Part shown: piece by piece, positions 15,936 through 39,744 of the stretch
How the letters are laid out: the number at the start of each line of letters is the position of its first letter
Numbering within the stretch: the first letter of the stretch is position 1
From: Novosphingobium sp.
GTDB taxonomy: Bacteria > Pseudomonadota > Alphaproteobacteria > Sphingomonadales > Sphingomonadaceae
Assembly: GCA_004211435.1 (NCBI GenBank)
Contig: SECS01000002.1
Coordinates: forward strand, 62,001 to 126,000
Direction of reading: 5' to 3'
DNA length: 64,000 bases
Made by a program: the position numbers and the translations under genes
The notes under the pieces: model-generated
Told to the model about the DNA's origin: nothing
Database searches by the model: none
Seen by the model: only the letters and a program-made list of their open reading frames with translations

Positions 15936-17311
15936 CCGCGCCCGTCGTTGTCTGGCTACGCCGCGACCTGCGGCTCGCCGATCAGCCTGCGCTGAGCGCC
16001 GCCGCCAGCGAAGGCCCGGTGATCCCGGTTTTCGTGCTCGACGATGAGATCCCGGGCGATCGCAAGCTCGGCGGTGCTTCGCGCTGGTGGCTGCATCACA
16101 GCCTCGAGGCCTTGGCGCGCTCGTTGGGGCGGCATCGCTCGAAGCTGATCCTGCGCCGGGGAGACAGCGTCGCAGAGCTGGTCAAGCTGGCCAAGGAGAC
16201 CGGCGCGAAGGCGGTCCACGCCATCGCCCACCACGAACCCTGGTGGCGCGAGGCCGAGGAAGCGCTCGCCCGGAAGCTCGACCTCCATATCCACGACGGC
16301 AACTACCTGCTGCCGCCCGGCGCGGTCACGACGGGATCGGGCTCGCCCTACAAGATCTACACGCCCTTCGCCAAAGCCGCGCTTCAGCGTTTGCCCGAAC
16401 GCGATCCGCTCGACGAGCCGGCGCTGACGAGCCCCGCGACCTGGCCGAAATCAGACGAACTCGCCGACTGGAACCTCTTGCCGACCAGGCCCGACTGGGC
16501 CGCGGGCCTGCGCAAGGACTGGGTCTGCGGCGAGGCAGCCGCACACGATTCGCTCGACGAGTTCCTGCACATCGCCCCGGACTATGAGCGAGACCGCAAT
16601 CTGCCGTCGATCGCGGGCACGTCGCGCCTATCGCCGCATCTGCATTGGGGCGAAATATCGCCCACGCAGGTGTGGCACGCGCTGGCCGGCAAGCGCGGAG
16701 AGGGCGTCTCCACCTTCCGCGGCGAACTGCTCTGGCGCGACTATGCGCAGACCGTGATCTGGCAGTTTCCGGACTATGCCAAAGCGTCCTATCGCCACGA
16801 CTTCCGCCACCTGAAATGGCGGCGCAGCAAGGAGGACCTCGCGGCCTGGCAGCAGGGCCGCACCGGCTATCCGCTCGTCGACGCCGGCATGCGCCAGCTC
16901 TGGACGACCGGCTGGATGCACAACCGCGTGCGCATGATCGCGGCAAGTTTCCTGATAAAACATCTGCTCATAGACTGGCGCGAGGGCGAGCGCTGGTTCT
17001 GGGACACCCTGGTCGACGCCGACTACGCCAACAACGCCGTCAACTGGCAATGGGTCGCGGGCAGCGGCGTCGACGCCAACCTGTTCACCCGCATCATGGC
17101 GCCGCTGACCCAGTCGCCGAAGTTCGATGCGGCCGGCTACATCCGCGAATGGGTGCCCGAACTCGCCGATCTGTCCGATGCCGACATCCACGATCCGCCC
17201 GACGAGCAGCGCGGCGGCTATCCCGCGAAGATCATCGGTCACCGCGAAGCCCGCGAGCGGGCGCTCGGCGCCTATCGGGCCATGAAGACCACGATCTCGA
17301 AGCCCGAATGA
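15932..17311 (+). CDS. phrB: Deoxyribodipyrimidine photolyase
   Basis: This 459-residue enzyme uses light and reduced FAD to split cyclobutane pyrimidine dimers. The N-terminal alpha/beta antenna-binding domain begins VVVWLRRDLRLADQPALSAA. The C-terminal helical FAD domain includes SRLSPHLHWGEISPTQVW, ELLWRDYAQTVIWQFP, DAGMRQLWTTGWMHNRVRM (the W-M-H-N-R block near the lesion) and LVDADYANNAVNWQWVAGSG. The tryptophans expected for electron transfer appear present. The length is that of class I CPD photolyases. The start is coupled to the YdjM-like gene. A cryptochrome role cannot be excluded, but the sequence fits a true photolyase. Confidence 0.93.
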   Translation: MTAPVVVWLRRDLRLADQPALSAAASEGPVIPVFVLDDEIPGDRKLGGASRWWLHHSLEALARSLGRHRSKLILRRGDSVAELVKLAKETGAKAVHAIAHHEPWWREAEEALARKLDLHIHDGNYLLPPGAVTTGSGSPYKIYTPFAKAALQRLPERDPLDEPALTSPATWPKSDELADWNLLPTRPDWAAGLRKDWVCGEAAAHDSLDEFLHIAPDYERDRNLPSIAGTSRLSPHLHWGEISPTQVWHALAGKRGEGVSTFRGELLWRDYAQTVIWQFPDYAKASYRHDFRHLKWRRSKEDLAAWQQGRTGYPLVDAGMRQLWTTGWMHNRVRMIAASFLIKHLLIDWREGERWFWDTLVDADYANNAVNWQWVAGSGVDANLFTRIMAPLTQSPKFDAAGYIREWVPELADLSDADIHDPPDEQRGGYPAKIIGHREARERALGAYRAMKTTISKPE

Positions 17312-31615: not shown

Positions 31616-31707
31616 GGCGTCCCAAAGCCGGACAGCGCGATGCTCGGCTCATCTGGCGTTCACGCGCGGATCGTAGCATTTAGGAAACCATGATGGGGAG
31701 AACAACC

Positions 31708-32319
31708 ATGCCCAGGTTCCAGGCAGCGCTCCTTGCCGGCGCTGCGATCCTGACTTCGGCGACCGCGGCCCAGGCCGCCGATCCGCAGTGGCACACGACG
31801 ATCGTCGAGATGCCCGACGGTTCGGACATCGAGATCCAGTACGTCGGCGATATCGAGCCGCGCGTGCGCGTCGCCATGCCCGTGGTCCAGGGCGCTAGCC
31901 CCGCCGCGGTCGAGGCCGAGGGCACGCCGATCGCCTATGGCGGCATCCCGCGCGCGCGCCGCATGATCCAGCCGCCCGCGCCGGGCGTGTCGCAGTACGC
32001 GCCGCAATATGCCGCGCCGAGTGCACCACTTTCCGCGCCGCCGCAATTCGTCATCGCCGGCGATCAGCCCAAGGGCAGCACTTACGAATATACGCTGATC
32101 ACCACCGGCACCGACGGCAAGGTCTGCTCGCAGCGCACCGAATGGACCTCGCAGGGCAAGAACAAGGAACCGCGGGTGAAGCGTGTCGACAGCGGCGAAG
32201 GCTGCGCCGGCCAGATCGCCCCGCCGCCCGTCTCCGCACCGGCGATGACCCCTGTGCCGGCGCCGCTGCCGCAGGGCACTTCGCCGCGGATCGTGCCGGT
32301 CGATCCGAGCTCGATCTAA
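31708..32319 (+). CDS. Secreted proline-rich protein of unknown function
   Basis: The ATG at 31708 has GGGGAG seven bases upstream, better than the ATG at 31690, and gives 203 residues. A Sec signal peptide (MPRFQAALLAGAAILTSATAAQA) is followed by WHTTIVEMPDGSDIEIQYVGDIEPRV and a proline-alanine-rich linker (SQYAPQYAAPSAPLSAPP). A small folded part then has two cysteines (GKVCSQRTEW, GEGCAGQIAP) that may pair in the periplasm, and the tail is again proline-rich. It is probably a cell-envelope protein. I cannot name a family. It is followed 12 bases later by the end of the convergent radical SAM gene. Confidence 0.7.
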   Translation: MPRFQAALLAGAAILTSATAAQAADPQWHTTIVEMPDGSDIEIQYVGDIEPRVRVAMPVVQGASPAAVEAEGTPIAYGGIPRARRMIQPPAPGVSQYAPQYAAPSAPLSAPPQFVIAGDQPKGSTYEYTLITTGTDGKVCSQRTEWTSQGKNKEPRVKRVDSGEGCAGQIAPPPVSAPAMTPVPAPLPQGTSPRIVPVDPSSI

Positions 32320-32331
32320 GCCACGGGCTGA

Positions 32332-33411
32332 TCACAGCAGGCTGAGCTGCCCGTTCGCCGATGGCTTGCGAAAGCCGCTGACGTCGAGATCCAGCGCGAT
32401 ACGATTGATTTCCAACCGCTTGCAGGCGAGGCGGAAGCGCGTGCGAAACAGGTCCGCCCAGACGCCCTCCGGCTTCATCCGCGAGAAGAACCCGGGATCG
32501 TTGTCGCGCCCGCCGCGGATCGACTGGACGATGTGCATGACCTTGCCCGCGCGGTCGGGATAGTGGACCTCGAGCCATTCGCGGAACAGCGGCGCCACCT
32601 CGTGCGGCAGCCGCAGCATGATCCAGCTGGCCGAAGTGACCCCGCGCTCGGCCGCCTGCGACAGGATCGCCTCCATGAATTCGTCGGTGATCGACGGGAT
32701 CACCGGCGCGACCGAGACATGCGCGGGCACCCCCGCCGCGGCCAGTTGCCCGAGCGCGGCGAGCCGCTTGGCCGGCGCCGAGGCGCGCGGTTCGAGGAGG
32801 CCCGATAGCCGGGGATCGAGGCTCGTCACCGATATGCCGACCGCGATCAGCCGCAGCTGCGCCATCTCGCGCAGCAGATCGAGATCGCGCACGACCCGCG
32901 CCGACTTGGTCGTGATCGTCACCGGATGACGCACCTCGAGACAGACCTCGAGGATTTGCCGGGTGATCTCGTAACGCCCTTCGATCGGCTGGTAGGGATC
33001 GGTGTTGGTCCCCATCGCGATCGGCGCGGGCTTGTAGCTCGGTTTCGCCAGCGTCTCGCGCAGCAGCCGTGCGGCATCGGGCTTGGCGAAGAGCTTGGTC
33101 TCGAAATCGAGCCCGGGCGAAAGGTCGTGATAGGCATGGGTCGGCCGCGCGAAGCAGTAGATGCAGCCGTGCTCGCAGCCGCGATAGGCGTTGATCGAGC
33201 GGTCGAAGACGATGTCGGGCGACTGGTTGAAGCTGACGATCGTCTTGGGGCGCTCCTCGGTTACGGTCGTGCGCAGCTTGGGGCCGGGGCCGTCGATCTC
33301 CTCGCGCGCGTCGAGCCAGTCGCCATCGTCGTGGCGCTCGGCCAGGCCGAAGCGGCGCGAGACGCTGCCGGACTGGGCGCCGCGGCCGTGGACGGTGGGC
33401 TTGGGACTCAT
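32332..33411 (-). CDS. Radical SAM protein of the PA0069/SplB-like family
   Basis: This 359-residue protein contains the radical SAM cluster motif C79-x3-C83-x2-C86 in YRGCEHGCIYCFARP. The family text DGDWLDAREEIDGPGPKLRTTVTEERPKTI and FNQSPDIVFDRSINAYRGCEHGC is that of the PA0069-type branch related to spore photoproduct lyase, which repairs UV-damaged thymines. The substrate of this branch is not established. Starts are possible at 33411 or 33423. Neither has a ribosome-binding site, and a LexA box (33418-33432) overlaps the second, so I choose 33411; the transcript could be leaderless. The LexA site supports a DNA-repair role. Confidence 0.85.
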   Translation of the reverse strand: MSPKPTVHGRGAQSGSVSRRFGLAERHDDGDWLDAREEIDGPGPKLRTTVTEERPKTIVSFNQSPDIVFDRSINAYRGCEHGCIYCFARPTHAYHDLSPGLDFETKLFAKPDAARLLRETLAKPSYKPAPIAMGTNTDPYQPIEGRYEITRQILEVCLEVRHPVTITTKSARVVRDLDLLREMAQLRLIAVGISVTSLDPRLSGLLEPRASAPAKRLAALGQLAAAGVPAHVSVAPVIPSITDEFMEAILSQAAERGVTSASWIMLRLPHEVAPLFREWLEVHYPDRAGKVMHIVQSIRGGRDNDPGFFSRMKPEGVWADLFRTRFRLACKRLEINRIALDLDVSGFRKPSANGQLSLL

Positions 33412-33417
33412 GGAATG

Positions 33418-33432
33418 GAACATAATAAGAAC
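33418..33432 (-). promoter_or_regulatory. LexA (SOS) box over the radical SAM gene promoter
   Basis: The plus strand reads GAACATAATAAGAAC, which on the gene strand is GTTC-N7-GTTC, a perfect match to the alphaproteobacterial LexA consensus, with the AT-rich spacer typical of real sites. It would overlap a -10 element TATGTT (33419-33424) placed 17 bases after TCGACA on the minus strand, the expected geometry for repression. The next gene on the other side (nat) starts 54 bp away. Confidence 0.72.
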
Positions 33433-33485
33433 AAAATGTCCTGTCGAGTCTGGCGCATGGCATCTGTCGCCCTTAGAAGCAGGGC

Positions 33486-34346
33486 ATGACCACGATCGAT
33501 CAACGCCTTGCCGCCTATCTTCAGCGCATCGGCCTTGCCGAAGCGCCGCCTGCGGACGAGGCGGGGCTCGAACGCCTGCTGGCCGCACACCGCCAGGCGA
33601 TCGCCTTCGAGAATCTCGATATTCCGCTGGGCCGCGGCATCGCCATCGACGGCGGCAGCGTGTTCGCCAAGCTCGTGGGCGCGCGGCGCGGCGGCTATTG
33701 TTTCGAGCAGAACCGCCTGTTCTCCGACATGCTCGCGGCTGCGGGCCTGGCAAACCGGCCGCTGCTCGCGCGCGTCTGGCTGCAGGTGGCCGAGGGTGCC
33801 ACACCGCCGCGCACCCATGTGCTGCTGCTCGTGGCGGTCGATGGCCGCGACGTGATCGCCGATGCCGGTTTCGGCGGAAGCTTCGTGCCGCCGCTGCCGC
33901 TGGTGGACGGGGCCGAAGGGCGGACGCCCGATGGCGCGTCGCATCGGCTGCGCCGGCTCGGCCCCGAAGGCGGCATGGCCGGCGAATGGCTGCTCGAACG
34001 CGCCGGTCCGGTCGCCGCGACCGACGGCCGCTCGGCGCCGCACGAGGACTGGCAGCCGCAATACAGCTTCGATCTGGCGCGGGTTCAGCCCGCCGATCTC
34101 GAACAGTGCAACCACTGGACCGCGACGCGGCCCGACACGCGGTTCACGACCTTGCACGTCGTCAGCCGCGTTCTGCCCGACGGCTTTGCCGCGATGAGCG
34201 ATCGGCGGCTGACGATCTATCGCGCCGGCGAGACCGAGTTTCGCGCGATCGAGGACGTGGCCGACTATGCCGCCGCGCTGCGCGAGGTCTTCGGTCTCGA
34301 TATTCCCGCCGCCGAACTCGCCCGGATGCGGATATTCGCCGGGTGA
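33486..34346 (+). CDS. nat: Arylamine N-acetyltransferase
   Basis: This 286-residue cytosolic enzyme transfers an acetyl group from acetyl-CoA to arylamines and hydrazines through a cysteine thioester. The triad is complete: Cys72 in RRGGYCFEQN, His111 in PRTHVLLLVAVDG and Asp126 in VIADAGFGG, spaced as in the Salmonella enzyme. The N-terminal helical bundle (YLQRIGLAEAPPADEAGLERLLAAHRQAIAFENLDIPLG) and the barrel domain are intact. AGGGC precedes the start. Its physiological substrate is unknown; some bacterial family members serve in secondary metabolism or xenobiotic detoxification. Confidence 0.93.
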   Translation: MTTIDQRLAAYLQRIGLAEAPPADEAGLERLLAAHRQAIAFENLDIPLGRGIAIDGGSVFAKLVGARRGGYCFEQNRLFSDMLAAAGLANRPLLARVWLQVAEGATPPRTHVLLLVAVDGRDVIADAGFGGSFVPPLPLVDGAEGRTPDGASHRLRRLGPEGGMAGEWLLERAGPVAATDGRSAPHEDWQPQYSFDLARVQPADLEQCNHWTATRPDTRFTTLHVVSRVLPDGFAAMSDRRLTIYRAGETEFRAIEDVADYAAALREVFGLDIPAAELARMRIFAG

Positions 34347-34893: not shown

Positions 34894-35421
34894 CTAGACC
34901 TCGCGCAGGCGCGGCATCAGCTCGACGAAGTTGCAGGGCCGATTGCGGCTGTCGAGCTGCTCGGCGAGGATCTGGTCCCAGCCGTCCTTCACCGCGCCGT
35001 TCGAGCCAGGCAAGGCGAAGATGTAGGTTCCGCGCGAAAGCACGGCCATCGCTCGCGACTGTACGGTCGACGTGCCGATCGTCTTGAAGCTCAGCCAGCG
35101 AAACAGTTCGCCGAATCCGGGGATGTCCTTCTCCTTGACGCGGTCGAGCGCCTCGGGCGTGACGTCGCGCCCGGTCAGGCCCGTGCCGCCGGTGGTGATC
35201 ACGCAATCGACGCGTCGGTCGTCGATCCAGTCGTTCAGGCGGCTGACGATGCGGTCCACAACGTCCTTTTCGATCGCGCGCTCGATGAGGTTGTGACCTG
35301 CGCCGGTTACCCGGCCGGCAAGAAGCGCACCTGACGTGTCGTCATCGAGCGTGCGGGTGTCGGAAATCGTCAGGACCGCGATATTGATCGGAGTGAAGGT
35401 CCGGCTCGTGTCAACGGGCAC
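34894..35421 (-). CDS. moaB: Molybdenum cofactor biosynthesis protein B
   Basis: This MogA/MoaB-fold protein adenylylates molybdopterin before molybdenum insertion. I start it at the GTG at 35421, with CGGAG nine bases upstream, giving 175 residues, the family length. Motifs are AVLTISDTRTLDDDTSG, CVITTGGTGLTGRDVTPEA and YIFALPGSNGAVKDGWDQIL, the substrate and nucleotide loops. The start overlaps the end of the upstream lytic transglycosylase gene by 11 bases, so it is probably translated from the same mRNA. No other moa or moe genes are in the window. Confidence 0.92.
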   Translation of the reverse strand: MPVDTSRTFTPINIAVLTISDTRTLDDDTSGALLAGRVTGAGHNLIERAIEKDVVDRIVSRLNDWIDDRRVDCVITTGGTGLTGRDVTPEALDRVKEKDIPGFGELFRWLSFKTIGTSTVQSRAMAVLSRGTYIFALPGSNGAVKDGWDQILAEQLDSRNRPCNFVELMPRLREV

Positions 35422-37201
35422 GCACGACGGCTCCGTTTGGCCCCATGCGCACGGCGTTGGAGCCGGCGAGGCCGGGGAAGGTCGGCCACAGGCCTTGCGC
35501 CAGCGCAGCGCGGCTTTCCGAAGGGCCACCGGCCTGGCGCTCGTACATCCAGTAATTGCGCATCACGATGTTCACATAGCCGCGCGTTTCCCAATAGGGC
35601 ACCGACTCGATCCACAGCAGCGGATCGCCCTGGTCCTTGATCTCGGTGTTCCAGCGGCTGATCGGCAGAACGCCGGCGTTGTAGGCGGCCATGACCTTGG
35701 GCAGCAGGCCCTGGGTGCAGTTCTGGTCGCGCAGCATGTTGAGGTGGCGCTGGCCGAAGGCGAGGTTTACCTCGGGCTTGTTCAGATCGCTGGCATTGCC
35801 CGTATAACCGAGCGAGCCGGCGTGATCTTTGGCCGCCGCGGGCATGATCTGCATCAGGCCGCGCGCGCCCGCGGGGCTGACGACCGAGGCGCGGAATACC
35901 GATTCCTGCAGTGCGTGGGCATAGACCAGCGCGGGATCGACCTGCCAGCCGCCGACGGGGGTCCACTTGGGCGTGGGGAAGCGCGTCGCCGGTTCGGGCT
36001 TGCCACCGGCGGGGGCGTTGTAGGCCATCCACAGCTGGGTCGAAGGCAGGCCGAGATCGCGCGCGAGGCGGGTCAGCGGCTGATACTGGTCGGCCGAGCC
36101 GATGCGCGCCTGGTGGCGCAGCACTTCGTCGGCGAGGGCATCCTGGCCGATTTCCGACAGGCCGACCGCGACGCGGATGTTGGCGCTGTCGCGCAGGCGC
36201 TGCCAGTCGTTCTGGGTGAAGTCGGCCTCGCCATGCTGCTCGGGCAGCTTCATGCCGAGCTGTTCGGCGGCGAGCATGCCGTAGAGCGTCTCGTCGCGCG
36301 CGGCGGCCAGGCGCAGCGGCGCGGCGGCTTCCTCGGGCTTGCGGCAACGCACGAGCGCGCGGCTTTGCCAGTAATAGGCGGCCGAGCGCAGCTCGGCATT
36401 GTCGGCGCGTGCGGCGGTGTTCTTGAAGGCATCGGCCGCGCCCTGGCAATCGCCGAGGCGCCAGGCCGAGAGGCCCGCGGTCCACCAGGCTTCGCCGATC
36501 CATTGGCCGGCGCCCTGGGTCGCGAGCTGGGCGAGGCTGTAGGCCTCGGTATCCTGGTTCTCGATGTAGAACGACCAGGCGACGCGCTGACGCCATTCGG
36601 CGCGCGCGGAATCGGACAAGGTGGCATCGACACCGTCGAGCAGGGTACGCGCGCCCAGCGGATCGTCATTCTTGATCTTGTCGAGAATGCCTGCGGCGAT
36701 CGCGGCCGGCATCGTGCCATCCTCGACGCTGCGCGGGCGCACGCGCTTGGCGATGCTCGGCAGGCTGACCAGTGGCTGCGCCCCGGGCATCGCGGGCATG
36801 ACGCCGGCGCCGCGCGTCATCGCCAGGCGGGCGATCTGTTCGGACTGCGGCAGGCTGGTGCCCTTGGCGAGCCAGGCGCTGAGCTGGCCAAGCTCGATGC
36901 GCGGGCTGCCCGAGGCGAGGTAATACTCGGCGAGGGCTTCCTGGTGGAGTGGACCGTCTTCTTTCTGCGCGAACAGCACCTGAACGCGGGTCCAGTCCTT
37001 CTTGTCGATGGCGGCGAAGAGATCGCGGTAATAGGTGCGCTCGTCCTGGCTGAGCAGCGATGGCACGGCGGTGCGGTCGGCGCGCGTGCGGAAATAGTCG
37101 ACGGCGGCGCTGTTGGCCTGGGCGGGGGCAATGCCGAGCGCAACGGCGCTGGCGGCGGCGAGACCAATAGTCAGCGCCCGTGCTTTCGCGGCGAATGTCA
37201 C
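35411..37201 (-). CDS. slt: Soluble lytic murein transglycosylase
   Basis: This periplasmic enzyme cleaves peptidoglycan with formation of 1,6-anhydro-muramyl ends. It is 596 residues from the GTG at 37201. The signal peptide ends at IAPAQA; upstream in-frame residues look non-coding. A long superhelical, alpha-solenoid U/L region covers about residues 40-430. The catalytic SLT domain follows at about 440-590, with the glutamate in YAHALQESVFRASVVSPAGARGLMQIMP and AYNAGVLPISRWN, and a C-terminal IVMRNYWMYERQ. The layout equals Slt70-type enzymes. It lies between a UDG-like gene (37 bp upstream) and moaB (overlapping). Confidence 0.9.
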   Translation of the reverse strand: MTFAAKARALTIGLAAASAVALGIAPAQANSAAVDYFRTRADRTAVPSLLSQDERTYYRDLFAAIDKKDWTRVQVLFAQKEDGPLHQEALAEYYLASGSPRIELGQLSAWLAKGTSLPQSEQIARLAMTRGAGVMPAMPGAQPLVSLPSIAKRVRPRSVEDGTMPAAIAAGILDKIKNDDPLGARTLLDGVDATLSDSARAEWRQRVAWSFYIENQDTEAYSLAQLATQGAGQWIGEAWWTAGLSAWRLGDCQGAADAFKNTAARADNAELRSAAYYWQSRALVRCRKPEEAAAPLRLAAARDETLYGMLAAEQLGMKLPEQHGEADFTQNDWQRLRDSANIRVAVGLSEIGQDALADEVLRHQARIGSADQYQPLTRLARDLGLPSTQLWMAYNAPAGGKPEPATRFPTPKWTPVGGWQVDPALVYAHALQESVFRASVVSPAGARGLMQIMPAAAKDHAGSLGYTGNASDLNKPEVNLAFGQRHLNMLRDQNCTQGLLPKVMAAYNAGVLPISRWNTEIKDQGDPLLWIESVPYWETRGYVNIVMRNYWMYERQAGGPSESRAALAQGLWPTFPGLAGSNAVRMGPNGAVVRAR

Positions 37202-37238
37202 TGTGCGTCCGATTCCTATCCGTCCCCGGCTCGTCAGA

Positions 37239-37979
37239 TCAGATCTGCGTCCAGTCGAGCCACCCTTGCCATAGCCCAGCCTTCCAGCGCGGTCGTTCGA
37301 GCAAGGCAGACAAGCTCTTACCGGCAAGCAGGGGAATGGTCAGACCCTCATGGTTAATTTCGCGTAAAACGGCAGGACTATGCGCCGGATCGTTGCCCAA
37401 GAGCGGCAGGATGTTGCTGCCGAGCGCTATGACCCGCTTCGGTGCGGCCAGTCTGACGTGATTCAGAAGCACGGCGCCGAAGCCCTTGTCGGCCAGTTCG
37501 GCCCAATCGGCCATCGGGGTGTGGCGTGGCAGGACACTTGCCAGATAGATGTTCTCGAGCCCGATCCCCATCGCCGCGAGCATCGCCTCGAGCAGCTTAC
37601 CCTGGGGGCCGGACAGCAGTTGTTCGCCGTCGTCGCGCTCAGGTTCGGGCACGATCACCATGATGTCGGCGCCCTGATCGCCGCGCGGCGGCACCCGACC
37701 GCTCAGGCGCCCGTCGTCGAGCAGCGGATCGTCGAGCCACCATTGCCGGAAGGCCGCGAGGTCCTGCGGCAGGCTGCTGCGGTCGATCGTCGGCTTGGGG
37801 GGCGGGGGCGGGGCCTCGGCGACGACGGCGCGGCGCTCGGCCTGCTTGGCTTCGGCCTCGTTCGGCGCCAGCCAGCGGTTCGGCTCTTCGGCGAAATCGC
37901 AGTCGACCCCGGCGTCGCGCCACCAGTCGAGCGCGGCCGCGAAGTCCTCGACAAACCCGGATTTCGCCCCATCTTCCAT
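37239..37979 (-). CDS. Uracil-DNA glycosylase superfamily protein, degenerate
   Basis: This 246-residue protein (start at 37979; an in-frame ATG at 38051 is possible) aligns in outline with family 4/5 uracil-DNA glycosylases. An N-terminal WW segment and proline-rich linker (AEAPPPPPKPTIDRSS) is followed by a core with GPQGKLLEAMLAAMGIGLENIYLASVLP and VRLAAPKRVIALGSNILPLLGND. The catalytic motif GEAPG is replaced by VPEPE, the C-terminal HPA/S-LLR motif by GKSLSALLE, and the four Fe-S cysteines of the family are missing. It may have lost or changed its activity. It lies just upstream of slt on the same strand. Confidence 0.7.
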   Translation of the reverse strand: MEDGAKSGFVEDFAAALDWWRDAGVDCDFAEEPNRWLAPNEAEAKQAERRAVVAEAPPPPPKPTIDRSSLPQDLAAFRQWWLDDPLLDDGRLSGRVPPRGDQGADIMVIVPEPERDDGEQLLSGPQGKLLEAMLAAMGIGLENIYLASVLPRHTPMADWAELADKGFGAVLLNHVRLAAPKRVIALGSNILPLLGNDPAHSPAVLREINHEGLTIPLLAGKSLSALLERPRWKAGLWQGWLDWTQI

Positions 37980-38033
37980 CTGGCGGGTCTTGACCTGCAA
38001 GCCCGTTCCAATCAAGGCGCAGAGGAATTTAAT

Positions 38034-38050
38034 TGCACGATTAGCGTGCA
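38034..38050. promoter_or_regulatory. Dyad upstream of the ETF-QO gene
   Basis: TGCACG and CGTGCA are perfect six-base arms around ATTAG, 44 bp before the ETF-QO start and in an AT-richer patch. It could be an operator or overlap the promoter. No known regulator is assigned. Confidence 0.3.
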
Positions 38051-38094
38051 TACAGGGGACGGCCTTCGCGGGCCGGGAGAACAGGACAAGAGAG

Positions 38095-39744
38095 ATGAGC
38101 GAACGGGAATCCATGCCCTATGACGTCGTGATCGTGGGCGGCGGGCCGGCTGGCCTGGCCACGGCGATCCGGCTCAAGCAGCTCAATGCCGACCTCGCGG
38201 TCTGCATTCTGGAGAAGGGCTCGGAGATCGGCGCGCACATCCTGTCGGGCGCCGTGGTCGATCCGCGCGCGCTCGACGAGCTGCTGCCCAGCTGGCGCGA
38301 CGACGGTTGCCCGATGGCCGAGACGCCGGTGACCGACAACTGGCACTGGTTCCTGACCGAGAACGGCAAGATGCCGATCCCGCACATCCTGATGCCGCCG
38401 TTCATGTCGAACGACGGCAACTACACGGGCTCGCTGGGCAACCTGTGTCGCTGGCTCGGCGGCAAGGCCGAGGAACTCGGCGTCGAGATCTTCCCGGGTT
38501 TCCCCGCTGCCGAGATACTCTACGACGACAAGGGTGCCGTCATCGGCGTCCAGACCGGGGACATGGGCGTCGCGCGCGATGGTGAGCACAAGGGCGACTA
38601 CCAGCCCGGCATGAACCTGCTCGCGAAATATACCGTGTTCTGCGAGGGCGCACGAGGTCACCTGACCAAGCGTCTTAAAGCCAAGTACGATCTCGAGCGC
38701 GATTGCCAGCCGCAGAAGTATGGCCTCGGCATCAAGGAGCTTTGGGACATCTCGCCCGACAAGCACGTGCCCGGCCGTGTGCTCCACACCCAGGGCTGGC
38801 CCCTGTCCGAGAGCGGCAGCGGCGGCGGCGGTTTCCTCTACCACCAGGCGAACAACCAGGTGGCGCTCGGCTTCGTCACGACGCTCGATTACGCCAACCC
38901 CTACGTCTACCCCTTCGAGGAATTCCAGCGCTGGAAGCAGCATCCGGAAATCCGCAAGATCCTCGAAGGTGGCAAGCGCGTGTCCTACGGTGCGCGCGCG
39001 ATCAATGAAGGCGGTTGGCAGTCGGTGCCCAAGCTGGCCTTCCCGGGCGGCGTCCTGGCGGGCTGCTCGGCCGGCTTCGTCAACGTGCCGCGCATCAAGG
39101 GCAGCCACACCGCGATGAAGAGCGGCATGCTGGCGGCCGAATCCATTGCGGCTGCCGTTGCGGGCAACCGCGAACATGACGAGCTCGGCGAGTTCGATAC
39201 GGCCGTACGCGACAGCTGGATCGCCAAGGAATTGAAGCTCGTCCAGAACGCCGAGCCGCTGCTCGCCAAGTTCAACGGCGACCTGTTCGGCGCGGCGCTG
39301 GCCAATGTCGACATGTGGCTGCGCTATCTCAAGCTGCCGATCTTCCCGGCGATGAAGCACCACACCGACGCTTCGGAGACGCAGCGCGCGGACCTGTTCC
39401 AGCCGATCCACTATCCCAAGCCCGACGGCGTGATCAGCTTCGATCGCCTGACCTCGGTCTCGTTCTCGTTCACCAACCACGAGGAAGATCAGCCGGTCCA
39501 CCTGCTGCTCAAGGATCCCTCGGTGCCGACCGAGATCAACCTGCCGCTCTATGCGGGTCCCGAGGCGCGCTATTGCCCGGCGGGGGTCTACGAATTCGTC
39601 GATCCCGACGGCGCGGGCCAGCGCCTGCAGATCAACGCGCAGAACTGCGTCCACTGCAAGACCTGCGACATCAAGGACCCGACGCAGAACATCGACTGGG
39701 TCGCGCCCGAAGGTGGCGGCGGGCCGAACTATCCGAATATGTAA
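38095..39744 (+). CDS. etfD: Electron transfer flavoprotein-ubiquinone oxidoreductase
   Basis: ETF-QO passes electrons from ETF, and so from fatty-acid and amino-acid dehydrogenases, to ubiquinone at the inner membrane. It is 549 residues from the ATG at 38095. The FAD site is YDVVIVGGGPAGLATAIRL, followed by LEKGSEIGAHILSGAVVDPRAL. The ubiquinone domain and the GSHTAMKSGMLAAE block are normal. The C-terminal 4Fe-4S cluster is built from cysteines in YCPAGVYEF and INAQNCVHCKTCDIKDPTQNIDW. Spacing and length match mitochondrial and alphaproteobacterial enzymes. etfAB are not next to it. Confidence 0.95.
   Translation: MSERESMPYDVVIVGGGPAGLATAIRLKQLNADLAVCILEKGSEIGAHILSGAVVDPRALDELLPSWRDDGCPMAETPVTDNWHWFLTENGKMPIPHILMPPFMSNDGNYTGSLGNLCRWLGGKAEELGVEIFPGFPAAEILYDDKGAVIGVQTGDMGVARDGEHKGDYQPGMNLLAKYTVFCEGARGHLTKRLKAKYDLERDCQPQKYGLGIKELWDISPDKHVPGRVLHTQGWPLSESGSGGGGFLYHQANNQVALGFVTTLDYANPYVYPFEEFQRWKQHPEIRKILEGGKRVSYGARAINEGGWQSVPKLAFPGGVLAGCSAGFVNVPRIKGSHTAMKSGMLAAESIAAAVAGNREHDELGEFDTAVRDSWIAKELKLVQNAEPLLAKFNGDLFGAALANVDMWLRYLKLPIFPAMKHHTDASETQRADLFQPIHYPKPDGVISFDRLTSVSFSFTNHEEDQPVHLLLKDPSVPTEINLPLYAGPEARYCPAGVYEFVDPDGAGQRLQINAQNCVHCKTCDIKDPTQNIDWVAPEGGGGPNYPNM

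Follow-up and report, generated by a model that had tools for sequence, protein, structure and literature searches.

A class-wide LexA box points to SOS control of a PA0069-family radical SAM gene with a predicted spore photoproduct lyase-like fold in Novosphingobium

The 64,000-nucleotide stretch of Novosphingobium sp. DNA analysed here (the window) carries a PA0069-family radical SAM gene on its minus strand (32332–33411, stop included), which starts at ATG 33411 and encodes a protein of 359 amino acids. The protein scores 455.8 bits against the PA0069 family model NF033668 (cut-off of 360 bits), covering model positions 2–348 of 348, and its sole Pfam match is Radical_SAM (PF04055). Directly before the gene, at 33418–33432 on the minus strand, lies a LexA box of the form GTTC-N7-GTTC, assigned by pattern match and orthologue conservation. 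The plus strand reads GAACATAATAAGAAC and the gene strand GTTCTTATTATGTTC, letter for letter as a preliminary description of this DNA had given it. The box overlaps the sole promoter-like match found between 33300 and 33600. A divergent arylamine N-acetyltransferase gene (33486–34346, plus strand; PF00797) shares the intergenic region, and the window retains moaB and a lytic transglycosylase frame upstream of the radical SAM gene. On the other side, the adjoining frame at 31690–32319 runs convergently and has no Pfam match; the rnhB (RNase HII) neighbourhood described below for orthologous loci is thus not kept here. About 4 kb separate the radical SAM gene from a frame with a weak match to the uracil-DNA-glycosylase superfamily (37239–38114, minus strand; PF03167, 26.0 bits against 24.3).

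The bare pattern GTTC-N7-GTTC is unremarkable and by itself proves nothing: it occurs twice in the window, where shuffles predict 1.5 matches, and 113 times genome-wide, where the same pattern read backwards occurs 51 times. The second match in the window (36971–36985) falls within an open reading frame (35411–37327) recognised by lytic transglycosylase models, has a mixed spacer and is probably due to chance. The significance of the box at 33418–33432 therefore comes from its placement and its conservation.

We examined that conservation in three sets of loci. Among Novosphingobium genomes, 40 of 41 have a match to the radical SAM protein, and a perfect box stands upstream on the gene strand at 29 of 30 loci, the exception being L027. 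For the class, we drew an even sample of 192 alphaproteobacterial genomes, 103 of which score over the NF033668 cut-off; the resulting 104 loci comprise 103 over-cut-off places besides the window's own together with one truncated gene (G229, L222), with five weaker places or broken copies left out. A perfect box lies on the gene strand within 400 nt upstream at 91 of these 104 loci, where the rate in the rest of the same loci predicts 0.26, although the loci are mutually related and the counts are not numbers of independent events. As controls, patterns with five other spacings and two with altered motifs were found at 0–3 loci. The 13 class loci that lack a perfect gene-strand box include two with a perfect box on the other strand (L149 and L164), others with a one-mismatch box on the gene strand (L135, L150, L157, L194, L196, L213 and L215) or on the other strand only (L197 and L221), and two, L182 and L211, at which neither a perfect nor a one-mismatch box was found upstream. 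One-mismatch boxes carry no chance rate and were excluded from the box counts. At a further locus, L049, the perfect box stands 238 nt before the conserved N-terminal anchor, a distance that could accommodate a short frame ahead of the radical SAM gene; a small gene may possibly have been inserted there.

At some loci outside the alphaproteobacteria the family is associated with a different operator. Of the best 80 loci in the genome_contigs set, 61 carry a perfect GTTC-N7-GTTC box, and the 19 without one are 16 loci whose names place them among the gamma-, beta- or unspecified proteobacteria and three alphaproteobacterial loci (L040, L093 and L106) in which near-boxes can be seen by eye. The LexA motif of beta- and gammaproteobacteria is CTGT-N8-ACAG. 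We found this motif in perfect form at 5 of the 16 non-alphaproteobacterial loci, 60–113 nt before the anchor, in Microbulbifer (L090), Pseudomonas (L094), Burkholderia and two MAGs; the other 11 show no perfect copy near the start. The occurrence of GTTC-N7-GTTC in alphaproteobacteria and of CTGT-N8-ACAG at some loci elsewhere thus ties the PA0069 family to LexA through two motifs. A match to the LexA model (E of 0.001) is present in 101 of the 103 genomes over the family cut-off and in 66 of the other 89; some of these matches lie under the LexA cut-off, five LexA-negative genomes are deduced from absence, and the co-occurrence is confounded with genome size, so we take it as consistency only.

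The host genome carries a recognizable SOS system under the same operator. Its lexA gene (on C194), whose product has the domains LexA_DNA_bind and Peptidase_S24, is preceded by a box at a distance of 42 nt from the ATG; for recA the box lies 124 nt upstream of the profile match on the same strand, and for uvrA 26 nt upstream in the opposite orientation. The box conservation before orthologues bears out the LexA control proposed in the preliminary description, and on these comparisons LexA (SOS) regulation of the radical SAM gene appears nearly certain. Repression itself would follow the LexA pathway as it is known elsewhere. LexA-type boxes were also observed (L223 and L008) in front of two more frames. 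One of these frames is a topoisomerase IB, with its box 43 nt upstream; the other, with a box 16 nt ahead of its ATG, combines a LapB-type zinc ribbon with a weak ATPase match, and we take it to be RadA.

Ownership of the box was assessed from the neighbouring genes. The N-acetyltransferase gene adjoins the radical SAM gene at only 3 of the 30 genus loci, the window's own included and with L015 and L018 holding less than 600 nt of upstream sequence, whereas the box is present at 29; the box therefore follows the radical SAM gene, and the N-acetyltransferase gene probably stands outside LexA control. Across the class, an RNase HII gene follows the radical SAM gene in the same orientation at 47 of 104 loci (within 100 nt at 19), a CcrM-like methyltransferase gene lies downstream at 36 and moaB upstream at 42. 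Each of these identities was read from one 120-residue piece, and since flank lengths differ the counts are lower bounds. With rnhB so placed, it may come under SOS control as well in those species.

We next consider the protein. The second-best family model, that of the Rv2578c family of radical SAM proteins (NF038135), gives 210.3 bits, far below its cut-off of 430. An alignment of the window protein with 48 others, picked for diversity from 210 usable sequences, shows that the CxxxCxxC motif noted in the preliminary description is conserved in all 49 members: C79, C83 and C86 are invariant, and no other cysteine is. Y85, R89, H92, T137, D138, Y140, Q141, E207 and R209 are likewise invariant. 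An AlphaFold2 model built from these 49 sequences has a mean pLDDT of 86.6; prediction is poor for most of the first 43 residues. Searching with this predicted model, Foldseek placed spore photoproduct lyase (SPL) structures in the top six positions (E values of 6e-9 to 3e-8). VIA-align likewise ranked SPL structures in the top six (Z scores of 18.9–19.1 over 264–269 residues at 3.3–3.8 Å), and the next family reached at most 14.8; SuiB, TYW1 and viperin are among the fold matches that follow. SPL (PDB 4fhc, 4fhf with spore photoproduct bound, 4k9r and others) is thus the closest solved fold and has the CxxxCxxC motif in common with the window protein, at 14–15% identity in the structural alignment.

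Sequence comparison barely detects this relationship. A phmmer search of PDB sequences with the window protein returned no chain at E of 1, and the 49-member profile retrieved nine chains at E of 10, SkfB and NifB among them and SPL absent. Global hhalign comparison with SPL gave nothing useful; local alignment of the one pair found 69 columns near EPRA...RL.A (E of 0.00085, probability of 24%). The kinship with SPL put forward in the preliminary description is accordingly upheld at the level of fold and scarcely at that of sequence. Judged from the predicted model, an SPL-like fold is highly likely.

In SPL, Cys140 (4fhc numbering) is the catalytic hydrogen donor and Tyr98 also has a role, and the PDB titles of the Foldseek matches include SPL mutants at both positions. 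PA0069-family members lack an equivalent of Cys140: at positions 133–136 (MGTN in the window protein), which match the Cys140 surroundings by motif rather than by a printed structural alignment, no cysteine occurs in any of the 49 sequences. The best-kept cysteine outside the cluster, at position 330, is found in 23 of 49. The position of Tyr98 is often Phe in the family (29 of 49, with Tyr in the other 20). The missing hydrogen donor argues against the label 'photolyase'; its mode of action is probably that of a radical SAM lesion enzyme, yet it is not to be filed as SPL. In the literature we found no report of this absence in the PA0069 family.

Two other assignments were considered and rejected. 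The radical SAM protein has no PF03441 domain in a Pfam scan, which disposes of a flavin DNA photolyase. For anti-phage defence, no PADLOC match was obtained at E of 1. The genome's one PF03441 match, a photolyase-type FAD-binding domain, belongs to a different gene in the same window (16715–17278, plus strand; G000:C89:78715–79278), so light repair is probably encoded apart from the radical SAM gene. Photolyase (PF03441) is present in 121 of the 192 class genomes.

To our knowledge, no reaction has been assigned to the PA0069 family. PA0069 itself reportedly belongs to the P. aeruginosa SOS regulon described by Cirz et al. in 2006. We found nothing in the literature on PA0069 as a radical SAM or LexA-linked family, the search for PA0069 alone being at title level. 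SPL-like genes under other names have, however, been linked to SOS networks. PMC3323433 predicts that LexA controls splB in alpha- and betaproteobacteria, with a predicted LexA box before the gene in Rhizobiaceae, Brucellaceae and Rhodobacteraceae with several chromosomes, and terms the function photoreactivation. Two Rhizobium loci in our data (L107 and L118) are PA0069-family genes with a GTTC-N7-GTTC box, and splB of that paper and the PA0069-family gene are probably the same gene. The paper states that the trait was not observed in gammaproteobacteria, whereas perfect CTGT-N8-ACAG motifs are present at our Pseudomonas (L094) and Microbulbifer (L090) loci. No word beginning 'sphingo' occurs in the main text of that paper.

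Comparable genes are recorded further afield. PMC8565304 describes the SplB radical SAM protein (COG1533) as a core member of the LexA network in Bacteroidetes, with SOS regulation shown in several species; this is an SPL-like radical SAM gene in a LexA network of another phylum, under a different motif. According to PMC7739468, a radical SAM protein occurs in Gram-positive and Balneolaeota SOS networks. The one experimental result that we found concerns Streptomyces venezuelae, where mitomycin C induces the radical SAM gene vnz_31145 19.97-fold and LexA gives a ChIP peak at the gene; its LexA motif is of the Gram-positive type, and the authors liken the product to enzymes repairing UV thymine cross-links (PMC9380542). 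We liken SplB/COG1533 and vnz_31145 to the present protein by description. SplB-like proteins are also linked to ImuB-C operons in PMC3765255, and the main texts of PMC13384398 and PMC6473078 contain neither radical SAM, photolyase nor splB. Since SOS control of SPL-like radical SAM genes is in print (PMC3323433, PMC8565304 and PMC9380542), the regulation is not new; the word 'uncharacterised' in the preliminary description holds for the chemistry and not for this regulation.

The promoter region suggests how the box could act. A consensus scan of 33300–33600 recovered a single promoter-like site, on the minus strand and identical to that of the preliminary description: a predicted −35 TCGACA (33442–33447) and, after 17 nt, a predicted −10 TATGTT (33419–33424), both called by consensus match only (9 of 12 positions; mean of 0.0 in 50 shuffles). 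The predicted −10 falls within the LexA box, as had been proposed, and ends 7 nt before ATG 33411. By inspection, no Shine-Dalgarno-like sequence precedes ATG 33411, in line with the missing ribosome-binding site noted earlier, nor is one seen before an in-frame ATG at 33423, which lies inside the box and had been passed over. Taking the promoter as predicted, the window gene has the arrangement of a leaderless gene: a −10 about 6–7 nt before the ATG and no Shine-Dalgarno sequence.

This geometry recurs across the class. The first in-frame ATG lies 23–27 nt after the box at 65 of 104 class loci, and we assembled 97 loci from all sets in which it lies at +22 to +27. Aligned on the ATG, their logo shows TA...T at −12, −11 and −7; further upstream, within the box, it has a T-rich stretch that includes TTG at −35 to −33. 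A TAnnnT motif stands 5–8 nt before the ATG at 71 of the 97 loci, 57 of them at exactly 6 nt, against an upstream background of 1.2%, and Shine-Dalgarno-like 4-mers occur at 5, against 5.2 in shuffles. The sequences look as would be expected if transcription began at the ATG, without a leader, and LexA occupied the −35 element, and leaderless transcription across the class is strongly indicated.

Novosphingobium loci are arranged differently. Here the first ATG lies at +10 to +13 in 23 of 30 loci and at +4 to +6 in 6, and the logo shows TTG 7–9 nt before the box, which would mean that the box covers the −10 region together with the spacer. The match to a −10 element is weaker in these loci (TAnnnT 5–8 nt before the ATG in 7 of 29, background of 1.5%), and Shine-Dalgarno-like 4-mers occur in 0 of 29, where shuffles of the same stretches give only 0.1. 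The window gene differs even from its relatives: TCGACA stands in place of their TTG, and the ATG lies at +6 where +10 to +13 is usual. A leaderless start is therefore less certain for it than for the class. Leaderless mRNA, as suggested in the preliminary description, thus agrees with the class-wide geometry, while for the window gene itself it depends on a predicted promoter; there we consider it fairly probable.

To follow these arrangements we used a FastTree phylogeny of proteins from 159 of the 181 box-bearing loci, 22 of them without a geometry label, which leaves out about two thirds of the genus loci and proteins of odd size. Scoring an ATG at +4 to +16 against one at +21 to +27 gives 13 changes on this tree, at least 7 of them forced by starred branches, compared with a mean of 33.3 after shuffling. 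The 13 changes indicate that the promoter shifted relative to the operator several times. We found no account in the literature of a class-wide leaderless architecture with a promoter moved relative to the LexA box, and none by title among the matches listed on leaderless SOS genes in alphaproteobacteria, where a paper could be missed.

Collectively, these observations suggest a LexA-repressed SOS gene with a leaderless or nearly leaderless message, encoding an SPL-like enzyme that acts on a DNA lesion or damaged nucleotide, an explanation to which we give a probability of about 0.62 as a whole. In undamaged cells, LexA bound at 33418–33432, over the predicted −10, would block RNA polymerase; upon DNA damage, RecA filaments would prompt LexA self-cleavage and the gene would be transcribed. 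Transcription would begin at, or a few bases from, ATG 33411. The product would be a [4Fe-4S] radical SAM enzyme of SPL-like fold that makes a 5′-deoxyadenosyl radical and most likely acts on a DNA lesion or a damaged nucleotide, and because the hydrogen-donor cysteine is missing, its chemistry would differ from that of SPL. A role in DNA-lesion repair as such is favoured on balance.

Other readings concern the substrate of the enzyme. Radical SAM enzymes of related fold, such as SuiB, TYW1 and viperin, act on peptides, tRNA and nucleotides, and their presence among the next fold matches, together with moaB upstream at 42 of 104 class loci, would fit a LexA-controlled enzyme that modifies tRNA, a nucleotide, a cofactor or a protein rather than DNA during the damage response. 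We consider this unlikely: an enzyme of DNA lesions leads the fold matches clearly, the family is tied to two LexA motif types and often stands before rnhB, and moaB is not known to have a damage role. Less likely still is a true SPL, the 'photoreactivation' enzyme that PMC3323433 proposed for splB. The nearest solved fold, the common radical SAM motif and the local profile match near EPRA...RL.A (hhalign E of 0.00085 at 24% probability) speak for it, but no member has the cysteine at 133–136, the Tyr98 position is Phe in 29 of 49, the 49-member profile fails to retrieve SPL from PDB sequences even at E of 10, and the genome has a separate photolyase-type protein (PF03441). Moreover, SPL uses SAM and not light, and the lesion that it repairs, spore photoproduct, belongs to the DNA of dry spores, so the photoreactivation label fits poorly.

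Two further alternatives concern the message and the box. The gene could be LexA-controlled and conventionally translated, from an mRNA with a leader or from ATG 33423 inside the box. That ATG is in frame, and Shine-Dalgarno-like sequences do occur at 5 of 97 orthologues, by eye clearly in L126 and L137; yet none was seen before either ATG of the window gene, the ATG retains its promoter spacing across the class, and a start at 33423 needs a promoter further upstream, of which the scan of 33300–33600 shows none. This too is improbable. Finally, the box might have arisen by chance or might serve the divergent N-acetyltransferase gene. A window is expected to contain 1.5 copies of the bare pattern, which speaks for this view, but it is ruled out for practical purposes by the box at 91 of 104 class and 29 of 30 genus orthologues and by an acetyltransferase that adjoins in 3 of 30.

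Returning to the LexA-repressed lesion enzyme, the class-wide box and the different motif in other proteobacteria place the protein very probably in the DNA-damage response, and with the SPL hydrogen donor missing, simple spore-photoproduct repair is not to be expected of it. More tentatively, and at somewhat less than even odds, the PA0069 family as a whole may be a widespread SOS-induced repair radical SAM enzyme of non-SPL chemistry, acting on a yet-unassigned lesion, whose alphaproteobacterial message is leaderless and whose promoter has slid repeatedly against the LexA operator, which in most lineages would cover the −35 but in others the spacer together with the −10 region. The class-wide box and the promoter-like spacing of the start form a natural series for the co-evolution of LexA operator and promoter, and the same orthologues are useful for asking how leaderless SOS genes are expressed. 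The gene is not always single: G202 holds two full copies (L187 and L203), contig C2 of G014 a partial and a full copy, and contig C3 of G094 three pieces, one of them with in-frame stops.
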